In this document: in pieces, positions 1,058 through 63,482 of the stretch
How the letters are laid out: every line of letters starts with the position of its first letter
Numbering within the stretch: position 1 is the first letter of the stretch
Assembly: GCF_004210375.1 (NCBI RefSeq)
Contig: NC_134830.1
Span: 66,938,326 to 67,002,325, forward strand
Source of the DNA: Tachypleus tridentatus
Taxonomy: Eukaryota > Arthropoda > Merostomata > Xiphosura > Limulidae
Length of the DNA: 64,000 nt
Direction: 5' to 3'
Notes under the pieces: generated by a model
The model's input: the letters and a program-made list of their open reading frames with translations, nothing else
The model's database searches: none
Told to the model about the DNA's origin: nothing
Translations under genes and position numbers: made by a program

Positions 1058-1329
1058 TGTTGTTTTGGAATTTCGCACAAAGCTACTCGAGGGCTATCTG
1101 TGCTAGCCGTCCCTAATTTAGCAGTGTAAGACTAGAGGGAAGGCAGATAGTCATCACCACCCACCGCCAACTCTTGGGCTACTCTTTTACCAACGAAAAA
1201 TGGGATTGACCGTCACATTATAACGCTCCCACGGGTGGGAGGGCGAGCATGTTTGGCGCGACTCGGGCGCGAACGCGCGACCCTCAGATTACGAAGCGCA
1301 CGCCTTAACGCGTTAGGCCATGCCAGGCC
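1058..1329 (-). repeat. SINE A (tRNA-headed, ~270 bp), full copy
   Basis: tRNA-like head at the right end on the minus strand (A-box-like TGGCC..., B-box-like segment followed by GGTCGCGCGTTCG), conserved body and 3' tail at the left. Flanked by a perfect 12 bp target duplication TTTAATGTGTGA (1046-1057 and 1330-1341), which fixes both ends. Confidence 0.95.
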
Positions 1330-3063: not shown

Positions 3064-3200
3064 CCTGTAGCTCCCCGCTAGTACAGTGGTATGTTTACGG
3101 AGTTACAATGTTAAAATCAGGAATTCGATTCCCCGCGGTGAGCTCAGTAGATATCCAGATGTAGCGTTGCTATAAGAAAACACACGCAAACACACTGTTA
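3064..3200 (+). repeat. SINE C (short tRNA-derived, ~125 bp)
   Basis: tRNA-like head (CCCCGCTAGTACAGTGGTA, GGAATTCGATTCCCCG) followed by a CAGATAGCC-like tail and (ACACAA)-type end. Confidence 0.85.
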
Positions 3201-4867: not shown

Positions 4868-5095
4868 AGAAGACTCTAGATCCTTAAATTATTCAGTTTA
4901 TTGAACAGAAACGTATAATGTAGCACGTGGTATGTTTTTCATTATTTTATACTTTTATCAATTATCTTCAAACGTAGAAATCACTGCTTCTCTAGCGAAA
5001 CTAAGCGTTAATAGTTTGACATTTCTTGTCGCAAAATGAGCAGCGCCGGCTGATGAAAACTTCGTGGAAACACTTCAGACATTTCAAAGTAGTTT

Positions 5096-5352
5096 GTTTG
5101 GTTTGGTTAGGAATTTCGCGCAAAACTACACGAGGACTATCTGCGCTAGCCGTCCCAAATTTAGCAGTGTAATACTAGAGTGAAGGCAGTTAGTCATCAC
5201 CACCCACCGCCAGCTCTTGGGTTACTCTTTTACCAACGAATAGTGGGATTGACCGTAACACTATAACGCCCCCACGGCTGAAAAGGCAAGCATGTTTGGT
5301 GTGACGGGAATTCTAATCCGCGACCATCGGATTACGAGTTGAGTCCTGAATG
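5096..5352 (-). repeat. SINE A copy, head truncated
   Basis: Tail and body intact (GAATTTCGCGCAAAACTACA). The tRNA head is lost after ATTACGAGTTGAGTCCTG. Confidence 0.88.
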
Positions 5353-9148: not shown

Positions 9149-9270
9149 AGTACCCCACTGATACAATGGTAAGTCTTCGGATTTACAACGCTAAAATCAG
9201 GGGTTCGATTCCCGCGGTTGACTCAGTAGATAGCCCGATGTGGCTTTGCCATAAAAAAAAACACGCACAC
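9149..9270 (+). repeat. SINE C, full copy inserted in the PLE
   Basis: Bounded by a perfect 12 bp target duplication AAACAAAGAGAG (9137-9148 and 9271-9282). Head has GGGGTTCGATTCCCG; tail has GATAGCCCGATGTGGCTTTG. Confidence 0.93.
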
Positions 9271-10477
9271 AAACAAAGAGAGTTTGCAACTGACCGTTGC
9301 CGAGCTCACATCTTAGGGATAAGAGTATAAACGGATACGGAATTGTAAGGGTCGTTGCAGTATATGTTAGGTTATTAATTAGTTTAAGTATAAAAGAGTT
9401 CCTTTATATTGGTGTAATTTTGGTTTGAGTAGTTGAATAAGTAGGACTTTTTTTATTTTGTGTTTGTTTCCCTACTTAATATCTGAGTGTTTTCTATGGT
9501 TATGTTGTGTTTATTTGACTTACAGTATTCAAAAAGGTGTGAAGATATTTCATGTACTATTTGAATCTAGTTTCCATTTTTCTGCTTGTTTCTCCAAAGT
9601 AGAAGCTGTGGCAGTTGTTGCATTGAATTTTATAAATAATGTTGGTGTTACCTTTCTTAGTGTAATTTTTACATAGTATGGACTTCAGTTTTATACCTGG
9701 TTTATGAATAAATTTGGTGTTTACTGTAATGTTGTGTTTTGTTGTAATATTTTCCAAATGTTAGTTATGTTTTCGTTGATATCGGGAAAATATGGTATAC
9801 AGCAGTATAAAGTTTTGTAGTTTGTTGTTAGCCGTGTTGTTGATCTAGGTGTGTGCATATAATTTTTTCAAAGGTTTTTGGAGGAAATTTGTTAATGTTG
9901 ATGCAATGTTGTTTTATTTTGCTAATTTCATCGTTAATTTTATCAGGTGAGAATAGTTTTATGGCTGTGTTTATTTGATTTCTTAATATGTTGGGTTTTT
10001 GTTTTGTTTCATGTGCTGAGTCCCAGGGAATCTATTGTCCAATATGGGTGATTTTTTTTGTGGATTTCTGTTTTAAATTGAGTATCGATTCTTGTGATCT
10101 TGATATTGAGAAATGCTATTTGGTTAGTTTATTTTTTTCCTGTTCACAGGTGAACTTAATGTTGGGGTGTATAGAGTTAACGTGATTGAAAAACCTAAGT
10201 GTGTGTTCTGTAGATGTGAATCCATCAATTGTATCGTCAACATATCTGTACCAATATAGTGGTGGATGTAAGGCTGAATTGATCGCTTGAGATTCAGTCT
10301 GTGCTATGAAAATGTTGGCTAGAATTGGTGACACGGTATTGCCTGTACTTAAGGCATTTGTTTGACCCAATCCCGTGTCATCAGTTCCAGCCAACATATA
10401 CTGCAACGTCCCCTATAATCCCGTACCTGTTTACACTATCTTTCCTAAAACGGTCAATACAAACTTACTCTGTTAAC

Positions 10478-10944: not shown

Positions 10945-11231
10945 TTGTTTGTTTCTGGTTTGTTTTGGAATTTCGCGCAAAGCTACAAACGAATGCTATC
11001 TCCGCTAGCTGTCACTAATTTAGCAGTGCAAGACTAGAAGGAAGGCAGCTAGTCATCACCACCCACCGCCAACTCTTGGGCTACTCTTTTATCAACAAAT
11101 AATAGGATTGACCATCACATCATAACGTTCCCACGGCTGAAATGGCGAGCATGTTTGTTGCGACCGGGATTCGAACCAGTGACCCTCAGATTACGAGTCG
11201 AACGCCTTAACCAACCTGGCCATGCCGGGCC
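10945..11231 (-). repeat. SINE A copy, nearly full length
   Basis: Complete from GAATTTCGCGCAAAGCTAC to GGCCATGCCGGGCC, with imperfect flanking duplication ATGGAATTTGA / ATGAAATTTGA. Confidence 0.93.
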
Positions 11232-13600: not shown

Positions 13601-13735
13601 TAGTGTGTATGTGTGTGTGTTTTCTCATAGCGAAGCCGCATCGGGCTATCTGTCAAGTCCACCGAGGGGAATCGAACCCTTGATTTTACCGTTCTAAATC
13701 TGCAAACTTACCACTGTACCAGTGGGGGACAAAAA
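13601..13735 (-). repeat. SINE C copy
   Basis: Reverse of the family: CATAGCGAAGCCGCATCGGG, GGGGAATCGAACCCTTG, CTTACCACTGTACCAG. Confidence 0.85.
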
Positions 13736-13844: not shown

Positions 13845-13942
13845 AACACTGGCTAAATGTGCCCTGCCCTCCAAGAATACTGAAATCCAATTTTTAGCGT
13901 TACAAGTCTTCAAACTTTCCGCTGAGCCACGAGGCACAAAAC
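13845..13942 (-). repeat. SINE B copy, diverged
   Basis: CCTGCCCTCCAAG, TTAGCGTTACAAGTCTTCA and GCTGAGCCACGAGG correspond to the reverse of the SINE B head and body. Confidence 0.65.
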
Positions 13943-16199: not shown

Positions 16200-16414
16200 T
16201 TTGTTTTGTTTTGGGAATTTCGCACAAAGCTACACGAGGGCTATCTACGCTAGCCGTCCCTAATTTAGCAAAGTAAGGCAAGAGGGAAGGCAGCTAGTCA
16301 TCACCACCCACCGCTAACTCTTGGGCTACTCTTTTACCAACGAAAAGTAGGATTGTCCGTCACATAATAACGCCCCCGCGGCTGAAAGGGTGAGCAGATT
16401 ACGAGTCGAACGCC
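16200..16414 (-). repeat. SINE A copy, internal and head deletions
   Basis: Tail and body conserved; the segment between GTGAGCA and GATTACGAGTCGAACGCC is missing and the head stops early. Confidence 0.9.
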
Positions 16415-17210: not shown

Positions 17211-17307
17211 TAGTTCGAAACTGGAAATGACTAGCTCAAGTAGATGTTGAGTAGTTTTAAGTAAATACCTGAAAACAGACTTTAAATAAAGTGAGTGAAA
17301 AGCGGAT

Positions 17308-18486: not shown

Positions 18487-18762
18487 TATTTGTTTGTTTG
18501 TTTACTTTCGCGCAAAGCTACACGAGTGTTATCTGCGCTAGTCGTTCCTAATTTTGCGGTGTAAAATTAGAGGGAAGGCAGCTAGTCATCACCACCCACC
18601 GCCAACTCTTGGGCTACTCTTTTACCAGCCAATAATGGGATTGACCATCACATTATAAAACCCCACGACTCAAAGGGCGAGCATGTTGGGTGTGAAAGGG
18701 ATTCGAACCCGTGACCCTCAAATAACGAGTCGAGTGTCTTAACCGTCTAGCCATGCCGGGCC
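18487..18762 (-). repeat. SINE A copy
   Basis: Full length: CGCGCAAAGCTACACGAG at the tail, GCCATGCCGGGCC at the head; a (TTTG)n tail precedes it. Confidence 0.93.
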
Positions 18763-20016: not shown

Positions 20017-20143
20017 CACACACCCCGCTAGTACAGCGGTAAGTCTACGGATTTACAACGCTAAAATCAAAGGCTCGATTCCCTTCGCTGGGCTCAGCAG
20101 ATAGCCTGATGTGGCTTTGCTATTAAAAAAAAACAACACACAC
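20017..20143 (+). repeat. SINE C copy
   Basis: CCCCGCTAGTACAGCGGTAA head and GATAGCCTGATGTGGCTTTG tail; flanked by TCATTTACA at 20008-20016 and 20144-20152. Confidence 0.88.
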
Positions 20144-22937: not shown

Positions 22938-23125
22938 TTGTTGCTGTTTGGAATTTATTGTTTGGAATTAAGCACAAAGCTACACAATGGGCTATCTATG
23001 CTCTGCCCACCACGGGTATCGAAACTGGATTTTCAGATATTCAGCTGTGCCACTGGGAGGCTGTTTGGAATTAAGCACAAAGCTACACAAAGGACTACCT
23101 GTGCTCTGCCAGCCATGGGTACCTC
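22938..23125 (-). repeat. Two SINE B copies in tandem
   Basis: TGGAATTAAGCACAAAGCTA occurs at about 22968 and again at about 23069, each followed by ACACAA and a CTCTGCC segment. The second copy is truncated. Confidence 0.8.
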
Positions 23126-45888: not shown

Positions 45889-46012
45889 CTGCCCCCCAGT
45901 GGCTCAGCGGTATGTCTGCGGACTAACACCGCTAAAATACAGGTTTCGATATCCATGGTGGGCAGAGCACAGATAGCCCATTTTTAGCTTTGTGCTTAGT
46001 TGAACAACAACT
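45889..46012 (+). repeat. SINE B, full copy
   Basis: CCCCCCAGTGGCTCAGCGGT head, GGTTTCGATATCCATGG, GCAGAGCACAGATAGCCCA and TAGCTTTGTGCTTAG tail. Flanked by ACACATTTATT (45878-45888) and ACACGTTTATT (46013-46023). Confidence 0.9.
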
Positions 46013-46796: not shown

Positions 46797-47066
46797 GGCT
46801 CGGCATGGCCAGGTGAGTTAAGGCGTTCAACTTGTAATCTGAGGGTCGCGTGTTCGCATCTCCGTCGCGCCAAACATGCTCGCCCTTTCATCCGTAAGGG
46901 CATTATAATGTGACGGTAAATCCCACTATTCGTTGGTAAAAGAATAGCCCAAGAGTTGGCGGTGAGTGGTGATGACTAGCTGCCTTCCCTCTAGTCTTAC
47001 ACTACTAAATTAGGGATGGCTTGCACAGATAGCCTTCGAGTAGCTTTGTGAGAAATGCAAACAACA
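46797..47066 (+). repeat. SINE A copy in plus orientation
   Basis: Head GGCATGGCCAGGTGAGTTAA, body and GAGTAGCTTTGTGAGAAATG tail all present. Confidence 0.93.
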
Positions 47067-53324: not shown

Positions 53325-53397
53325 CTTATAGAGAAATATATATGCAAAAATGGCTCATTTGGGTTGAGCCGTTTTTGCATATATATTTCTCTACAAG
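53325..53397. repeat. Long hairpin: 32-base inverted arms with 9-base loop
   Basis: Left arm 53325-53356, loop 53357-53365, right arm 53366-53397; only two mismatched positions, both of which remain G-U pairs on one RNA strand. Arms contain GAGAAATATATATGCAAAAA. Confidence 0.95.
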
Positions 53398-54875: not shown

Positions 54876-55448
54876 TCACTTTAGATGATTTTCTTGCCAC
54901 ATCCCTTGAACATCAAGTAGAAGACGAAGCAGATTGTCCAGTCCAAATAAGTATCCTTTGTCGGGACCTCTATGAACAGCTGTATCTCCTTCATAACCTT
55001 CATGAGTGGTGTGTGCAAAATCAATCATTCTCACATCTACAGAGCAGTAGCAGCTGTCAGATTCTTCATGTTTTGTCACAACGACTTCCTGGGGATACTT
55101 TTCAGAGCAATCTGTGTTTGAAGTGAATGACTCAGTTGAGCTAAATTCACTCTTTGTTGGGGATTTTTCTAAACTATCCTTTAACAAATCTTCTGTTTCA
55201 TCATCATCTTCCCCACATCCTTCATAGATGATAAGTAAAGAACTGGAATAAAACCTAAATGAATGTTGTTTTTCCAGAGCTCTCCGCAATTCCTGCAGCT
55301 TCTCAATTACTGTATCAATTACCCCAACACGCAAAGTAAAACCATTGTGGAAAAACTGATATAAGGTGTTTTGAAATCCATCTTCATCCAAGGCTCGTCC
55401 ATGGTATTTGTCCTTCCAGAGAAAAGCTTGGCAGTCGGCTTGGTAAAC
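54876..55448 (-). CDS. IP6K last coding exon
   Basis: 573 bp; acceptor TTTTAG before GTTTAC; stop TGA at 54878-54876. Encodes 190 residues including [10 protein letters not shown] (about 68-77) and IDF (142-144), both conserved in IP6Ks. Confidence 0.94.
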   Translation of the reverse strand, partial: VYQADCQAFLWKDKYHGRALDEDGFQNTLYQFFHNGFTLRVGVIDTVIEKLQELRRALEKQHSFRFYSSSLLIIYEGCGEDDDETEDLLKDSLEKSPTKSEFSSTESFTSNTDCSEKYPQEVVVTKHEESDSCYCSVDVRMIDFAHTTHEGYEGDTAVHRGPDKGYLFGLDNLLRLLLDVQGMWQENHLK

Positions 55449-58400
55449 CTAAAAGTTCATACAGTATAAAACAATTAAACATAGCAGTAATTTAAATATA
55501 TACAAGGGATGGACAAAATAAAGTGCTTTCCCCTGAAAATGTTGTTAATTTGTTATATCTTTTATTAGATAACAGAAAAATACATAAAACTGAATGTTTT
55601 TAGAATGCACTTGATGAAATCTGTTTAAATATGCTTTCAAATCCTAATTTTAAGACTGGCTTTTGTAAATACCTGAACTTTTCATGCTTTTAGTTACATT
55701 TTCTCACAAAAGATGTTGTGCACTTGTTGTAGTTTCTTAGATCTTATTCCAATTAGCTTACAAAATGATCAAACAAGCTTCAACTTTGACTTTTCAACAA
55801 ACACAAAGAATCATAACAGAAAACTATACTCTAGTAGTTAACTTTTTTACTGGTATCTAAAACAAAAGTACATCTTAAAATCATAGTTGAAACAAACAAG
55901 CATGAGGCCACACTAGAATCTGACGTGCCAAAGGTCATTATGAGCAGTAAAACTAACTTCTAATGTATTAAACAGTAAATTTAATTTCACATAACAGCAG
56001 CAAATAATGACTCAGGGATAAAATAGATATATATTAATTACAATCAGGTAAATACACTGTTATACATAAATGAATAAAATTCAAAGACATCAAGCCCTAA
56101 GAAAAAAAATTAAAAGATTCAAAAAAGACCTTACAAGATGCACATAACTCAAGACTTTGTTAACACAAAAGTATACTGACAAATAGGTGATTTGGTTAAA
56201 CATACCATCAACATTCTTAAAACAGGTTGAATGAAAACAGGAAAACACCATTTTTCACAAAAAATTTGAAATAACTGCACACATAACACAAACACTTTAA
56301 TAAATGATAAATTTAATATTTACGTGTACATGAATGGACTAAAGGGATTTTCACTGTTCTACTTGCTATCTAGCTTAGTCCAGTAAAAGAAACAGACTTA
56401 GTGAAGTCAGGATGATAAAAAAAAGGTATTACAATATACCTAGTTAATTTGACACAAATATTTTATCATGAAACATGAAAAAAGATGGAATTAATATCCA
56501 GACACAAATTACTCAAGAAATTTCACATATTTTTTAATTATGTTTTTTTTCCCATGTTATCCAAGAAAACCCAACCAACATATAAAGAATTTGTCAAAAT
56601 TCATAAAAAGGTTGGTTGGTTTGGTGTTTTATGGCACAAAGCAACTAGGCTATCTGTGCCAAACATCCAGTAAAAAGTTAAAATTAAAGTAAAATAAGTA
56701 AAATTCATAAAAGGAAATTAATGTAAAACAAAACAAAATTTAATTTTTGAATTAAAAAACATAAATAGCATTAAATCCAATTTTTACATTTAGTCTACAG
56801 CAGTAAGTGAAAAACTACAGTAATACAAGTTGAAAAGAACTTTCAGTTGCATAATTGTAATTATAAGAATTCGCCAGGAAGACTAACAAGTAAGCTCAAA
56901 AACCACTGTTAGTACTTGAAGTTGGCCTTTTCAGTCCTGATTGAGTTTTTGACATTATGGCCATTTTAATAAAGGAAAGTAATAAAAGTTTTAAAAGATT
57001 TGTAGCAAAATTTTAATTATAACTCACCAGGATAACTAATGGATAAGTTCAAACAGCAGTGTTAGTCACCTGAAGTTGGCCTTTCAGTCCTGGTTTTGAG
57101 TTATTTGATGTTACAGCCATTTTCTATCTTCAAATCAAACTAGATATACTTTGATTCTTAAAAGGGAATCACATTAAAAAGGTCTAATATAAATTAAAAA
57201 ACTTAAATAGCATTAAAAAGATTAATGGCCTTTAAAAAACTAAACATTTCTAAGGTGGTCAGTGTCACCACTGCCAATAGCACAAACATTACAAATAAAT
57301 CTTGGGACAGAACATGTTCAAAATGGTGCCATTATTGAGAGTCATAATAACAGCAAGACAGTAAAATGTAGTTTATTGTGACCTGAGTGTTTCACAGACA
57401 ACACATTGGTGCATCAGTCCCAAATAAAAGAAAACGATAAGTTAAAAACTGTGACCAATGCATAGTCTAGTTAGAACTACTTATTTCCAATCCCTATGGA
57501 AGCAAAATGGCCAAAGTCCAATAGAGAGTTTTATTTGGAAAAGCTTGTTTTCACATTGCTCACTCCAAGTTGACTGCCAACCAGCCTTGAATAGAGGACC
57601 ATAGTCCATGTATGGAACAGGCACAGCAGCAGTAGTGCCATAGCAGATAGATTTAGCTGTAGTGTCAGCAAGCTCATTTCAGCAAATATCAATGTGGCCC
57701 AGTGTCTAGAAAAACTAGACAGAAGTAGATGTTAAAGAGAAATGAGCCAGTCAGTTTTGAATATCAGCAAGAACAGGGTGTGAAGTGAATCCAGGACCAG
57801 TAGAGAACTAAGCGAGTCACTATAAATAGTGCAATTTGAGTACTGCTTGGCTTCTATGTAATTCAGGGCAAGAGAAATAGCATACAGAAACTGTAGAGGG
57901 GATTCTGTGTGCAACTACTGAACAAACCATGGCAGAGACCACACAGTCACCTGATTTCAAACCATCTGTATAAATAGGAATGAAAAGATGGTTTGAAAAA
58001 TGTTCAGCAAATAACACACAGTATTTCCAATTGGGAGTGCCTGCTTTTCCCAGATGACTTAAAGATAGGTCACATTTGGGGACTGTAAAAAACCATGGTA
58101 GGATGGGCTGACTAGTGGATACAGCAATGTTATCCAAAGACAAACCCAATTTATTCAACTACACCTGGTTACAAAGGCCAAAAGGAGCAATAACAGATCA
58201 TCTGTTTTGAAAAAGTATGGCCCACCGAGGAAGGAAAACACAATCCCAGGTGAGATGCATTAGTAAGGAACGAAATTTAGAGGCATATAGTAAAGACAGT
58301 TGCAAACAGCAGAGGTGCAAAGAAGGTTTGCAACACTCTGTGTATAAGCTCTGAACTGGGGAAGTATAGAAAGCCCAAGTGCAGAGATGAAGTCCTTGAT

Positions 58401-61400
58401 GATGAATGGGGTCCAGCATCTTTAAGGCTGAGGTCCTGGCAGAGCCACAGACCAGTGATCCATAGTTGAGTTTCAACTGAATAAGAGCACAATATATCTT
58501 TAGCATAGAACATCCATTTGCTCTCCATCTGATGGAAGAGAGGACATGGAGGATGTTCAGTGCTCTTGTACATTTGAACCGTAGCTGCTTGATGTGTGGT
58601 ATAAAGGTCAGCTTACAATCAATGATAAACTCCAAGAACTTTGTCTCAGGGACCACAGGCAGCACAACTTCACTGATACGGATTTCAGGATCAGGATGAA
58701 TACCCCATTGGCAGCAAAAGTGCATCAAACAGTTTTATATATAAAGAAAAGTTAGAGCCATTTGCTGTGGTCCACTTCAGTAAACGATTGAGGGCAGTCT
58801 GTAGCTGCCACTCAATATACCTCATGTTAGAGGACTGACATGAAATGTGAAAATTGTTGACATAGAGCCAGTGTGAAACAGTACGAGGGAGTTGTTCAGT
58901 GATGGCATTAATCTTTACATTGAAATATGTGGCACTCAAAACACAGCCCTGAGGGACTCCAAGTTCCTGTACAAAGAACAGGAAAGTGTCCAACCCACAC
59001 AAACTTGGAATCACATGCCCTTTATAACATTTTTAATAAAAATGGGTAAATGGCCATGTAACCCATATGTATGGAGGTCTCACAAAATGCCATACCTCCA
59101 TTTTGTATCATAAGCCTTTTCAATTTCAAAGAATATTGATACAAGATGTTGTCGTTGAGAAAGGCTTCTCTGATTGACGTTTCAAGTTGAATCAGATGGT
59201 CCACGGTGAAGTACTATCATCGGAACTCTCACTGGGTGGTTGAGAAAAGGTTGCTTGATTCAAGAAACCAAACAAGAAGAGCATTAACCATCCTCTCTAA
59301 GGTCTTACAGAGACAGCTAGTCAAAGCAACTGGACAGCAGTTTGAAGGAATCTTGGGATCCTTCCCAAACTCTGAGAAAGGTAGAACAATAGCCTGGCAC
59401 CAGGCATCAGGAAAAATGTTTTCCTGCCAGATCCAGTTAAAAACAATCAGAAGAATAGCAAGAGATAGATGGCACAGCATTTCATAGTGAGCATCATCAG
59501 GTTCAACCAATGTGCTGCCAGACTGATGAAGAGCCAATTTAAGTTCCACCAGTGTAAAGGGACAATTATAATTATAGAGACATTCAGCTCGAAAGGAAAA
59601 AGGTGATCACTCTGCCCACATCTTGATGGCTAAGAAGGTGGAGGAAGAAGCAGAAGTGCTAGATATATCTGGCAAAAGCTTTCGCCTTGAGTGTCGACAA
59701 TGCTCAGGGTATCAGCTACTTCCTGCCCATTGAGAGGGGGCAGAATTATAATTCCCACTGACCTTTTGAATCTTGTCCCATATAGGGCCGGTATGGCCAA
59801 GCGTGTTAAGGCATGCGACTTGTAATCTGAAGGTTGTGAGTTCGCATCCCAGTTGCACCAAACATGCTTTCAGCCGTGGAGGCATTATAATGTTACGGTC
59901 AATCCCACTATTCATTGGTAAAAGAGTAGCCCAAGAGTTGGCGATGAGTGGTGATGACTAGCTGCCTTCCCTCTACTCTTACACTGCTAAATTAGGGACG
60001 GCTAGCACATATAGCCCTCGAGTAGCTTTGTGCGAAATTCAAAACATACAAACAAACTTGTCCCATGTGACTTTGGAATTGGTGGTAGAAGATATGCTGG
60101 TTGTGAACTTAATCCAAGATTCCTTCCAGCTTTGACATCTTACCCACCGAGCATGTGCACGAGCCTGCTGGAAAGCAATGTGGTGCAAGAGTGTAGGATA
60201 CTACGAAAAGTATCCAAGGCCTGTTTTTGAGCTTTACGTGCCATGTGGCAGGCAAGATTCCACCACGGATGAGGATATCGTGAAAAACATGTCGAGGTTT
60301 CAGAAATACATTGAGCAGCTGCCTGTATAATAAAATCAATTAATTCTGCCAGACAGTCGTCTACAGATGGCTTACAGACGATGGTAGGATCAAGTTCTGC
60401 AAGAGCAGTGAAAGAGGGCCAGTTTGCTTGATCCAGCTTTCACCGGGGCATGCGGGTTGGGTGGCATTGACTAAGACCAGTCTCTCTCAAAATAATAGGA
60501 AAATGATCACTGCCTAGTGGATTATTGTCAACCCTCCATGAAAAGTAGGAGAATAATGAAGGGGAGCAAACTGAGAGATCAATAGCAGTAAAAAGCTGTT
60601 TAGGTGCATGAAAATAAGTATAATAACCACTACTGAAAATAGAAAGGTTGTGATCAAAAGGCATGTGCTCTACAGAGTGACTCCTCCTATCAATATCAGC
60701 ACTTTCCCAGAGGGGATGATGCCAATTAAAGTCCCCCAGGATTAAAAATGGAGATGGCAACTGTTCAATGAGAACATTAAGGTCTGATTGATCATAGGTC
60801 TCTCCAGGCAACAGATAGAGAGAACAAATGGTGATGATACAACCCAAGGAACACACAGATGGTTACGGCCTCCAAGAGTGCATCAAGGGACAAAGACAGG
60901 GTAGGTACGTGCTGATTAACCTACAGTGCCACCCCTCCATACACTCATCCATCACACAGCCTATCATTTCTGTACAAAGAAATTGGTGAAAGGTGACTGT
61001 ATTGGCAGGTTTCAGGAATGCTTCCTGTAAGGAAAGACATACAGGATTGTAGGCAGCAACCAGTGCTTCGATGTCATCGAGATTAGAACTTAAACCTCGA
61101 CAGTTCCATTGTATCAAAGTGGCCATTTTTATTGATGTGTAGAGCCCTTCCGTTTATGACCACATCGTTTTTCTTTACTGTCTTTATTCGAGGGTTTTGA
61201 AGTTGATTCATCAACTTTTAACCATGGAGGTCAAAAGACTTTTCACTTGGTTTGAGAATGATTCTTGTGGATGCACAGAGAGATCCATCTGCACTCCCAC
61301 TGTAGTAGTGGAACGAAGTAGAGCAGCATATGTCTGAGATGAAGTGGTAGACAGCAACTTTCGAGCCTCAGGATAAGTAATGTTTTGAATTGTTTTCAAA

Positions 61401-63482
61401 TGCTGCACCTCTTTTTCTTCCAACCATTTAGGGTAAGAACAAAAGTAGAACAGATGAGAACCATTGCAATTGACACAATGAGGGTCCATTTCACACTCAT
61501 ATGCATCCTGGTCCTTGCCAACTCAACAAGCACATGTCAAAGAACCACAACATAACGACTTCAAGTGACCAAACCACTGACACTGCAAACATCTGAGAGG
61601 GTGTGGAATGTATGGTTATACTCTGCAATTAAAATAACCTGCCTTGATGGTTGCAGGTGGATGTGGTGATGTAAATGTCAAAATGAGGACATTGGTCGGC
61701 ATTGCAATTCCATCTTTGCGAGTGGAGATACGTCTCACCGCAGAAACTCCTTGGGTGGAGAAACCAGTAAGAATTTCTGACTCGCAATGTTCTTCAAATC
61801 CTTGCCAACAATAACTCCTCATGATGAATTCAAAGTAGCATGAAGTGTAACATCAATAGGTACATCCCCAGCTGCCCTTGAATGCAAGAGGAGTTCACTG
61901 TGTTGAGATGTGGATGTTTCCACCAACATATCACCAGAGCAAAGCTTCTTTACTGACTTTGAAGAGCCAGCAAGTCTCTCTAGTCCCTTCTGAATGAAAA
62001 AGGAAGACATCTGCACTAAAGGTTTGTCTGAGAGAGAACGTAGTATTAAAAAATGAGATACAACAAGTGTTACAGATGTTGAAGATTGCTGCTCAGAATC
62101 TTCAAGATGTGGTCATTTACCTATGGACTGTTTTTTTCACTATTTTATTTGGAGGATCCATAATAAAAAGTAATATTTTGGTGCCCGCTGACCCCATCAC
62201 CATGGAGCCCTATGAAGAAATGCACTACAATGCCAAACAAGGACACTGAAGCAATGTGGGGATTTCATAAGCACTATACCCAAACACCAGCATCAGATAC
62301 AATGTCCACAACACCTGTTGAGAACATCCAACACTAGTACTTGGTTGACCCTCGCCTAAGTGGACCAGCTGATTGACCCCTCAACCACCAGGATCCTCTC
62401 CTCCCCTTCATGTGTCACCACACTCAGCAAACACATGGGTGGATGTTTAGATCCCTGACAAGGTAAACTAAAAGAACAGAATCTTCCCTGGGAGGTCCCC
62501 TCATCATGTACAGGAATTCACACCAAGGGAGCATCAAAAGGTTAGGTATATTCAATAAATGTACCTACACAATACAGCTAGGTGTAGTCCACAAACATGC
62601 AAAAAGAAAACAAAAAGTAATAAAAAATAAGCTATTTTAAAACTTTGAAAATAAAGAGATTAAAAAGCAGCACAACCAAGAATATTCTATTTGCCTAAAC
62701 CAGGAAATACTAATTTTTATAACAGTAAAAAAATGTGGTGCTATTTATTACTAATTATTTGTTTACTTGTTTGTTGAATTTCATGCTATCTGCACCAGCT
62801 GTCCCTGATTTAGAAGCAACAGATTACAGAGAAGGCAAAAGTCAACATAATTCAACTTTTTTATCAAAATGGGACTCACTATCACATTATAGCCACCCAA
62901 AAAATTAAATATTTCAAACATTTTTTAACAGATTCAGTTTTTAAATATGTATAAGAAAATCTAGACATATTTATAGCTGTTTACAAATAAATCAGATGTT
63001 TCTAAAATAAACCCAAAAAGGTTTGAGAAATTTTACAGGTAGAGATACAAAAATCTTATATTGTGTCTACTGAAATTCAAGGGGGTTAAAAAAATAAAAG
63101 TATACAACATCAACGTTATTCCAAAAGCTCTAATGAAATGTATACTTTCTGTGAGATTTTTGACAAGTGAACTTCATTTGGAAGCAACATAGTTTCTGTT
63201 CTAATCCTATAGTACTTAAAATTTGTTTGTCATGTGTGCAACAGTGTTTGAAACGTTTATAAAAGTATAATACATCCATTACCAAAATTTTAGTCATCAA
63301 ACCCACCTGCATTCCACATACTCGGACACCTAATGCCGAAGAAGTACTTGACGCACATTTAGCTATTTGTTTGTGTCTTTTTTCTTCTGATGCATCATCA
63401 CCATGTTGCCTTGTGCCCATCTTGAGATCTAAAATGCAAGGTCTGCGGAAGTGGTAAGTGACATTTTCTAACAGCAAGAAAT
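54876..63482 (-). CDS. Inositol hexakisphosphate kinase (IP6K), last two coding exons; 5' part outside window
   Basis: Makes diphosphoinositol pyrophosphates (5-IP7) from IP6. Exons in window: 63482-63307 and 55448-54876, joined by a phase-0 intron of about 7.86 kb; together they give 248 C-terminal residues. Visible: FLLLENV, the inositol-binding PxxxDxKxG signature as [27 protein letters not shown], then [17 protein letters not shown] and the metal-binding [10 protein letters not shown]. An acidic/Ser-Thr-rich linker of about 60 residues separates the last two blocks; this linker varies between family members. The protein ends in ENHLK. The intron contains a decayed LINE with a SINE inside it. 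Earlier exons must lie beyond 64000. Confidence 0.93.
55449..56610. other. IP6K intron, part next to the last exon
   Basis: AT-rich intron; nothing recognised before the LINE. Confidence 0.5.
56611..62560 (-). mobile_element. Decayed non-LTR retrotransposon (I/Jockey-type LINE) in IP6K intron
   Basis: Read on the minus strand: a 5' region (about 62560-62020); ORF1 with [31 protein letters not shown] and cysteine-rich knuckles ([13 protein letters not shown]) from 62016 to 61211; endonuclease with [13 protein letters not shown] (61126), [13 protein letters not shown] and GSDHFPI (60856-60440); RT with [17 protein letters not shown] (59549-59229), [14 protein letters not shown] and LYVNNFHIS (59014-58691); an RNase H-like part with [10 protein letters not shown] and [11 protein letters not shown] (58158-57732); then a 3' untranslated part with a diverged ~150 bp tandem repeat (about 56860-56995 and 57010-57130) and a tail of (AACC)-type units at 56611-56622. 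The RT catalytic YVDD has become YVNN, and many frames are broken. A SINE A is inserted at 59782-60056. Confidence 0.85.
59782..60056 (+). repeat. SINE A, full copy inserted in the LINE
   Basis: Bounded by a perfect 10 bp duplication CTTGTCCCAT (59772-59781 and 60057-60066). Complete from GGGCCGGTATGGCC head to GTAGCTTTGTGCGAAATTC tail. Confidence 0.95.
62757..62898 (-). repeat. SINE A fragment, diverged
   Basis: GAATTTCATGCTATCTGCAC, CAGCTGTCCCTGATTTAG and ATCACATTATAGCCACCC match the tail half of the family. Confidence 0.7.
63307..63482 (-). CDS. IP6K exon with PxxxDxKxG signature
   Basis: 176 bp; acceptor CTTTAG and donor GTGGGT. The first two bases complete a codon begun in an exon outside the window. 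PCILDLKMG fits the inositol polyphosphate kinase catalytic signature. Confidence 0.93.

Follow-up and report, generated by a model that had tools for sequence, protein, structure and literature searches.

Introduction

According to PMC4176376, stringent long interspersed elements (LINEs) copy RNAs that bear their own tail, and ORF2 of ZfL2 binds the stem-loop of this tail, the stem in a general and the loop in a specific manner. RSg-1, BovB_Pca, and RandI-2 are each paired with more than one short interspersed element (SINE) in Table 1 of PMC3747384 (2013), whose only protostome entry is Gecko of Aedes, which bears I-clade tails. Here, we examined a stretch of 64,000 nucleotides of the Tachypleus tridentatus genome (assembly GCF_004210375.1, contig NC_134830.1, positions 66,938,326 to 67,002,325, forward strand), which is hereafter called the window. 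It holds a decayed LINE (LINE-1) and copies of three SINE families (A, B, and C). An earlier inspection of its letters alone, referred to as the sequence-only reading, had proposed that one LINE lineage serves three SINE families with different heads through a common 3' tail core. This proposal was followed up in the window and in the genome to which it belongs (2.17 Gb, 205 contigs). The shared tail was confirmed, and the enzymes of the LINE lineage are proposed as the probable copying machinery of the three families.

Results

The tail core consists of AGATAGCC followed, after a gap, by GCTTTG. Both strands of the window were scanned using the pattern AGATAGCCN{4,12}GCTTTG, which gave 9 matches against 0.01 expected, all located in the tails of SINE A, B, C, or the LINE; none of 100 shuffled windows contained 9 or more. 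A covariance model built from 23 SINE tails with the LINE excluded (R1) was then searched with filters off. It detected the LINE tail at 32.1 bits (E = 3.3e-8) as well as two SINE A tails outside its training set (E = 1.9e-9 and 1.4e-4). Each of its 27 matches with E < 0.01 in the window lies on or adjoins a BLAST match to SINE A, B, or C, or is the LINE itself. A model of the letters without base pairs gave 14.0 bits (E = 0.0028) for the LINE and E = 0.2 for the next non-SINE match, though the two models use different scoring modes and the gain from base pairs is only indicative. When the training was restricted to 13 SINE A tails (R3), SINE B (best E = 1.8e-7) and the LINE (E = 4.4e-4) were still detected, together with one unexplained match at 17224–17275 (E = 0.0036). 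In the last 690 bases of the window LINE, no BLAST match to the SINEs (E 0.01) was found outside the tail. The sharing of a tail core by the three SINE families and the LINE, as claimed by the sequence-only reading, is therefore real; that the tails are no better than shuffled sequence was not borne out by the tests used, which were pattern shuffles and model E-values, not an alignment of consensuses against shuffled sequence.

The tail alignment contained 13 of 17 SINE A places (two lacked a tail and two were mislocated), 6 of 7 SINE B places, and all 4 SINE C places; the SINE B place at 13930 was excluded for having no core match. AGATAGCC and GCTTTG are the best conserved letters of the tail, and the letters between them vary, numbering 5 in both LINEs (LINE-1 and the LINE-2 family described below) and, among the SINEs, 8 in A, 9 in B, and 7 in C. 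On the minus strand at 56633–56660, the LINE-1 tail reads GGCACAGATAGCC-TAGTT-GCTTTGTGCC, so that both strings described earlier are present, with a spacer of 5 bases and not 4. Similarly, the SINE A end was described correctly for the copy with its tail at 1062–1113, which reads GATAGCCCTCGAGTAGCTTTGTGCGAAA exactly, while the copy at 59786–60056 reads CATATAGCC and not CAGATAGCC. The ends of SINE B (tail 45957–46008) and SINE C (tail 9214–9264) match their earlier description. The coordinates of these elements are collected in Table 1.

Table 1. Coordinates in the window of LINE-1, its tail, and the SINE copies (position 1 is the first letter of the window; TSD, target-site duplication).
Feature	Position	Strand	Tail	TSD	Evidence or remark
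Decayed LINE (LINE-1): endonuclease, reverse transcriptase, RNase H region, 3' untranslated region, tail	56611–62400	-			5' limit arbitrary
LINE 3' tail: predicted hairpin and start of (CCAA)n terminal repeat	56621–56669	-			R1 E 3.3e-8; fold -18.5 kcal/mol, z -3.4; 20 genome copies
5' arm of predicted LINE tail stem (TGGCACAGA)	56653–56661	-			Minimum-energy fold
3' arm of predicted LINE tail stem (TTTGTGCCA)	56632–56640	-			Minimum-energy fold
SINE A, nested inverted in LINE	59786–60056	+	59995–60046	CTTGTCCCAT	BLAST, R1, TSD search
SINE A	1061–1329	-	1062–1113	TCACACATTAAA	BLAST, R1, TSD search
SINE A	46801–47061	+	47013–47064		BLAST, R1
SINE A	10948–11228	-	10962–11015	TCAAATTYCAT	BLAST, R1, TSD search
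SINE A, GCGCA/TGCGC subtype	5093–5339	-	5105–5156		BLAST, R1
SINE A	16200–16388	-	16209–16260		BLAST, R1
SINE A	18489–18759	-	18497–18548		BLAST, R1
SINE B, fullest copy	45889–46012	+	45957–46008	ACACRTTTATT	BLAST, R1, TSD search
SINE B, 3' part	22959–23033	-	22959–23011		BLAST, R1
SINE C	9149–9275	+	9214–9264	AAACAAAGAGAG	BLAST, R1, TSD search
SINE C	20022–20143	+	20085–20135		BLAST, R1, TSD search
SINE C	13604–13730	-	13615–13665		BLAST, R1, TSD search
SINE C	3073–3195	+	3135–3185		BLAST, R1

To locate the tail within LINE-1, its 3' end (590 bases) was used as a query, which gave 6384 first-look candidates in the genome. Among 41 scored matches, 40 (the window included) reach query base 584 or beyond at 85–100% identity, and the scored copies are 85–89% identical to the query, hence not recent. 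Twenty of the best-scored copies were retrieved, a choice that favours complete copies. All of them end, more or less decayed, in GTTTGG-stem-AGATAGCCTAGTTGCTTTG-stem-CCATAAAACACCAAACCAACC and then diverge; L245 and L256 have a common flank and represent one event, and at least 19 of the 20 have different flanks. The tail is thus the 3' terminus of LINE-1 itself, as had been claimed.

The window copy of LINE-1 contains an endonuclease (PF14529 at 60440–60862, E = 1.7e-17, above cut-off) and a piece of reverse transcriptase (PF00078 at 58691–59032, E = 1.1e-6, 28.9 bits, slightly below cut-off). No RNase H match was obtained in this decayed copy, and a joined RNase H reading was also without a Pfam match. 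Other LINE-1 copies in the genome carry endonuclease (E = 9.2e-12) and reverse transcriptase (E = 9.7e-9) over the cut-offs, and RNase H was detected in copy L238 (RVT_3, 22.4 bits against a cut-off of 21.6, E = 1.2e-4) and, as RNase_H below cut-off, in four copies. By these domains, the LINE lineage encodes an endonuclease, a reverse transcriptase, and an RNase H located after the reverse transcriptase. A Protein Data Bank search with the LINE-1 endonuclease piece gave no matches, and no target-site duplication was found for the window LINE-1 when searched. A possible ORF1 region was seen by eye upstream in LINE-1. In its 3' untranslated region, a block is duplicated at 56819–56967 and 56978–57123 (77% alike), and similar blocks occur, by eye, in the corresponding region of the LINE-2 copy L317.

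LINE-2 was obtained from a genome search with RNase H (PF00075), in which 150 matches were scored. Many of these lie in extended open frames, the longest of 1040 codons; from the few looked at, we infer that they form one family. Its copy L317 has PF00075 at its 5' edge (54.2 bits) and holds the tail as GGCGCAGATAGCCTCGCTGCTTTGTGCC then ATAAAACACTAAATCAATCAATC (R1 E = 2.7e-6). This was the one of two fetched 3' stretches in which the tail was reached, and the other, L318, appears interrupted; L318:950–2001 is a LINE-2 copy apparently broken in the 3' untranslated region by another element. Among five further short LINE-2 windows, the tail is present in four (L319–L322) and absent from L323, with L319 and L322 sharing a flank and representing one event. 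The 3' untranslated region of LINE-2 has blocks that resemble those of the window LINE by eye, and LINE-2 is apparently a younger relative of LINE-1. Two more LINE relatives with 3' ends, L290 (77%) and L296 (65–69% in coding parts), were found by BLAST in a 200 kb sample of the genome. The proposal that one LINE serves the SINEs hence holds only at the level of the lineage, as LINE-2 also carries the tail and the two older relatives show it by eye.

The tails of the window LINE and the SINEs were compared in the columns of one alignment, which gave 26/30 identical letters for SINE A version A1 and 23/30 for both version A2 and SINE B. Pairwise, LINE-1 matches A1 at 27/30 and A2 at 25/30, and LINE-2 matches both at 26/30. 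A LINE family with a much closer tail to SINE A, which would have spoken against LINE-1, was accordingly not seen in LINE-2, which is about as close as the window LINE. After the core, A and B share AATTCAAAAC, and C has TATAAGAAAACACAC, ending in (CA)n; the terminal repeats are (CCAA)n in LINE-1 and (AATC)n in LINE-2. No terminal repeat or post-core sequence common to LINE and SINE partners was found among LINE-1, LINE-2, A, B, and C. Since the post-core sequences of A/B and C differ from those of both sampled LINEs, LINE-1 and LINE-2 are only candidates for the direct partners of the SINEs.

A stem-loop was sought by folding the shared tail, as the sequence-only reading had suggested; the folds support it well in the LINEs and less so in the SINEs. 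Folds of the LINE tail gave z of -3.4, -5.0, and -3.9, and that of LINE-2 gave -3.3. RNAalifold on 24 tails placed a stem at columns 12–17 with 35–40. For the extended stem in these 24 tails, 81.8% of 264 cells pair against a shuffled mean of 74.7, and the covariation score is 0.303 against 0.188, neither of which was equalled in 500 shuffles; pairs changed on both sides number 7 against 4.7 (27/500 as good). Six slid versions of the stem were all far lower, and SINE A alone gave a similar, weaker result. Relatedness of the copies and CpG decay can account for part of these statistics. Counting wobble pairs as standard, pairing is retained at columns 12–40 to 16–36 and 19–35 to 21–33 in all group consensuses (A1, A2, B, C, and the window LINE). 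Two-sided changes between them are found at 13–39 (A-T or G-C), at 12–40 (C-G, but A-T in SINE C), and at 10–42 (A-T in B and G-C in the LINE, with no pair in A or C), of which those at 12–40 and 10–42 are, in our reading, not CpG products. In 34 SINE A tails of the 200 kb sample (7 of 41, not 52 letters long, were excluded), pair 13–39 is G-C in 17, A-T in 9, G-T in 2, A-C in 2, and other in 4, and this strong link may be a single subfamily event. The outer stem is predicted as likely in the LINEs and as plausible in the SINEs. A double compensatory change inside LINE-1 (GGCACA/TGTGCC to GGTGCA/TGCACC) was striking in a few copies, failed a four-way count, and was discarded.

In the window, BLAST (E 0.01) detected approximately 17 whole or partial copies of SINE A, 8 of SINE B, and 4 of SINE C. 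The heads of B and C are identical at 48 of 60 aligned bases, which none of 2000 shuffles equalled. Those of A and B are no better than chance (609/2000 shuffles as good), and A and C match over 15 bases at box B (2/2000). Thus, the three different heads described earlier reduce to two head types, with B and C being homologous. The consensuses of A and C have both box A and box B of RNA polymerase III promoters, and that of B has only box A under a strict pattern. Neither ARAGORN nor Rfam reported a tRNA in the window, and the tRNA origin of the heads hence rests on these boxes. SINE A would be composed of a tRNA-like head with a long body, and B and C of a second tRNA-like head without a body. 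One SINE A copy is nested in LINE-1 in the opposite orientation with a target-site duplication, indicating that SINE A was active after this LINE-1 copy landed. Two tandem SINE B tails, 103 bases apart and one nearly headless, lie on the minus strand at 22959–23011 and 23062–23114. Internal tail deletions were seen in SINE A copies at 62770–62805 in the window and at L292:6120–6161, L279:1572–1611, and L295:4252–4300.

The genome yielded at least 7627 first-look candidates for SINE A and at least 3328 for SINE B. A content-blind sample was also drawn as twenty segments of 10 kb placed at round coordinates of contigs C1–C4 and C6 only, in which R1 gave 65 matches at E 0.05 or better. The sequence upstream of these tails was assigned to A in 41, C in 14, and B in 7, and to none in 3 (B- or C-like by eye); the B and C labels are partly mixed owing to their homologous heads, and some tails labelled C are B-like. 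The tail density is approximately 325 per Mb (195–460 by bootstrap over loci), which extrapolates to about 0.7 million tail-bearing insertions genome-wide.

Beyond this genome, tail-pattern matches in the viral_contigs and genome_contigs collections have only the core in common with these elements; the best BLAST match of the LINE and SINE queries to 228 of their loci had E = 0.025, and the SINE A body pattern gave 0 matches in viral_contigs. A text search of a paper library with strings of 20–22 bases from these elements gave no match. In a literature search, whose reach did not include work on SINE middle bodies and MetaSINEs, no description of these families was recognised.

Further features of the window were noted. 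A piece coding for inositol polyphosphate kinase (PF03770, E = 9.6e-32) is located at 54876–55448 on the minus strand; LINE-1, which shares its strand, is located upstream and is perhaps intronic. A second reverse transcriptase fragment (PF00078, E = 1.2e-7) was found at 10116–10412 on the minus strand, which may be Penelope-like. A 25-base inverted repeat, nearly perfect and enclosing a short loop, occurs at 53332–53390. It gave weak scores to microRNA families, one family on both strands and all below cut-offs, and is more likely, as our guess, a small palindromic element or one resembling a miniature inverted-repeat transposable element.

Discussion

The data are best explained by a LINE lineage with a conserved 3' tail, the enzymes of which copy SINE A, B, and C in trans via that tail, a reading to which we assign a probability of roughly 0.8. 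The LINEs of this lineage, which encode endonuclease, reverse transcriptase, and RNase H, end in GCRCAGATAGCC-loop-GCTTTGYGC and then in short tandem repeats, with a predicted hairpin in the LINEs. The LINE reverse transcriptase most likely reads this tail in its own RNA at the start of target-primed reverse transcription. The RNAs of SINE A, B, and C carry versions of the tail, of which that of SINE C departs furthest, and would most likely be copied in trans by the enzymes of this lineage. By analogy with stringent LINEs, both tail binding and the target-primed start would occur on LINE and SINE RNA alike. A bolder version is doubtful, namely that the lineage uses a code unlike that of the L2 clade, in which fixed letters (AGAUAGCC and GCUUUG) on either side of a stem are read with 5–9 variable bases between them, and that this code drove the approximately 0.7 million insertions of three SINE families in a 2.2 Gb genome while the tails split into SINE and LINE subtypes.

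Several observations weigh against copying of all three families by this lineage through a folded tail. The link of the SINE C tail to the other tails is the weakest of the set: the model trained on SINE A alone misses it (E = 1.4), and its likeness to the window LINE is remote (17/30 identical). The tails seen by eye in L290 and L296 were scored by R1 at only E = 2.3 and 0.32, respectively. Neither AATTCAAAAC nor (CA)n follows the core in either sampled LINE family. Target-site duplications of 11–13 bases, several with one mismatch, speak for the reading and were found in 7 of 12 SINE copies examined (A 3/6, B 1/2, C 3/4), but by a search that had no chance control. As for the hairpin, the consensus energy from RNAalifold is only -1.55 kcal/mol. 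The stem is the minimum-energy fold in one of six SINE tails (1062–1113), the centroid in one more (45957–46008), and the best fold in none of the four SINE consensuses; the z of these folds, -0.3 to -1.8, are at or near the shuffle level. Even in LINE-1, exact 42-mer counts revealed no linkage between the stem sides (14 and 10 paired, 11 two-wobble, 8 non-pairing; Fisher p = 0.54). Covariation was not clearly above shuffles in 20 LINE rows, for which the window copy was aligned with 19 of the 20 fetched copies (L256 was left out as its tail and flank are the same as those of L245). All four stem forms of LINE-1 could have arisen from a GGCGCA/TGCGCC ancestor through CpG decay.

Standing at about even odds, and compatible with copying by the lineage, is the explanation that A, B, and C are served directly by further LINE subfamilies within this lineage, ending in AATTCAAAAC for A/B and (CA)n for C, with the window LINE as a cousin. 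It accommodates the post-core differences that set the SINEs apart from LINE-1 and LINE-2, the common head and different tails of B and C, the comparable closeness of LINE-2 and LINE-1 to SINE A, and the 85–89% identity that makes the scored LINE-1 copies not recent. However, the 200 kb sample, albeit small, contained no LINE of this kind: 62 of its 65 tails follow an A, B, or C match, and the other 3 resemble B or C by eye. Slippage can also generate terminal repeats, so that partners may differ in them. It is highly improbable that the LINE acquired its tail from a SINE, or that SINE tails were swapped by template switching, giving a likeness without a common enzyme. Although B and C, with one head and different tails, would fit a swap, the tail is terminal in LINE-1, LINE-2, and, by eye, the older 65–69% relative, and is hence old in the LINE lineage; moreover, swapped tails too would persist because an enzyme reads them. 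Almost no weight is left for the tail at 56621–56669 being a separate SINE fragment beside the LINE, for which nothing was found and which is ruled out by the same placement in all 20 fetched copies, at least 19 with different flanks, and by the 40 of 41 scored matches that reach the 3' end. Chance or low-complexity similarity, which the presence of the bare core in large collections might suggest (109 stretches in viral_contigs, at least 119 in genome_contigs), is equally negligible, being refuted by the enrichment in the window and the E-value of R1, and five consecutive outer stem pairs, as in the LINE and the fullest SINE B, occur in only 1 of 185 distinct collection matches.

This genome provides a very abundant natural set, in which one tail is carried by two families of LINEs and three of SINEs, and one of the two LINEs has long open frames. 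What a LINE enzyme reads in the tail thereby becomes testable outside the L2 clade by comparison and assay.

Comparison with Known Systems

Among the closest described cases is the Gecko SINE with an I-clade LINE of Aedes aegypti (PMC3747384), which joins a tRNA-headed SINE to the tail of an I-clade LINE; the LINE described here has the domain set of an I-type LINE (endonuclease, reverse transcriptase, and RNase H), and its tail is shared by three SINE families. In salmonids, RSg-1 with SlmI, Hpa I, and OS-SINE1 (PMC3747384) similarly shows one LINE tail on several SINE families, whose heads are derived from tRNA-Leu, tRNA, and 5S. Both cases are likened to the present one by description and not by tail sequence. 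In PMC3272025, HaSE1 and HaSE3 of the insect Helicoverpa armigera have two heads and the one tail of HaRTE1.1, as seen here, whereas that LINE is of the RTE type and the body of HaSE3 is also common to HaSE1. Hagfish SINE1-1_EBu and SINE2-1_EBu again combine different heads with one tail, that of RTE-2_EBu, and their concurrent activity is proposed in PMC7245038; the LINE is again RTE-type, and the heads are derived from 7SL and tRNA. UnaL2 and ZfL2 (PMC4176376) have a 3' stem-loop at the LINE tail as predicted here, which is needed for copying in those elements. They belong to the L2 clade, in which the loop is read specifically, while in the present tails AGATAGCC and GCTTTG are conserved and the letters between them vary. 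That one LINE serves several SINEs is already established by such systems, and the set described here is a further case.

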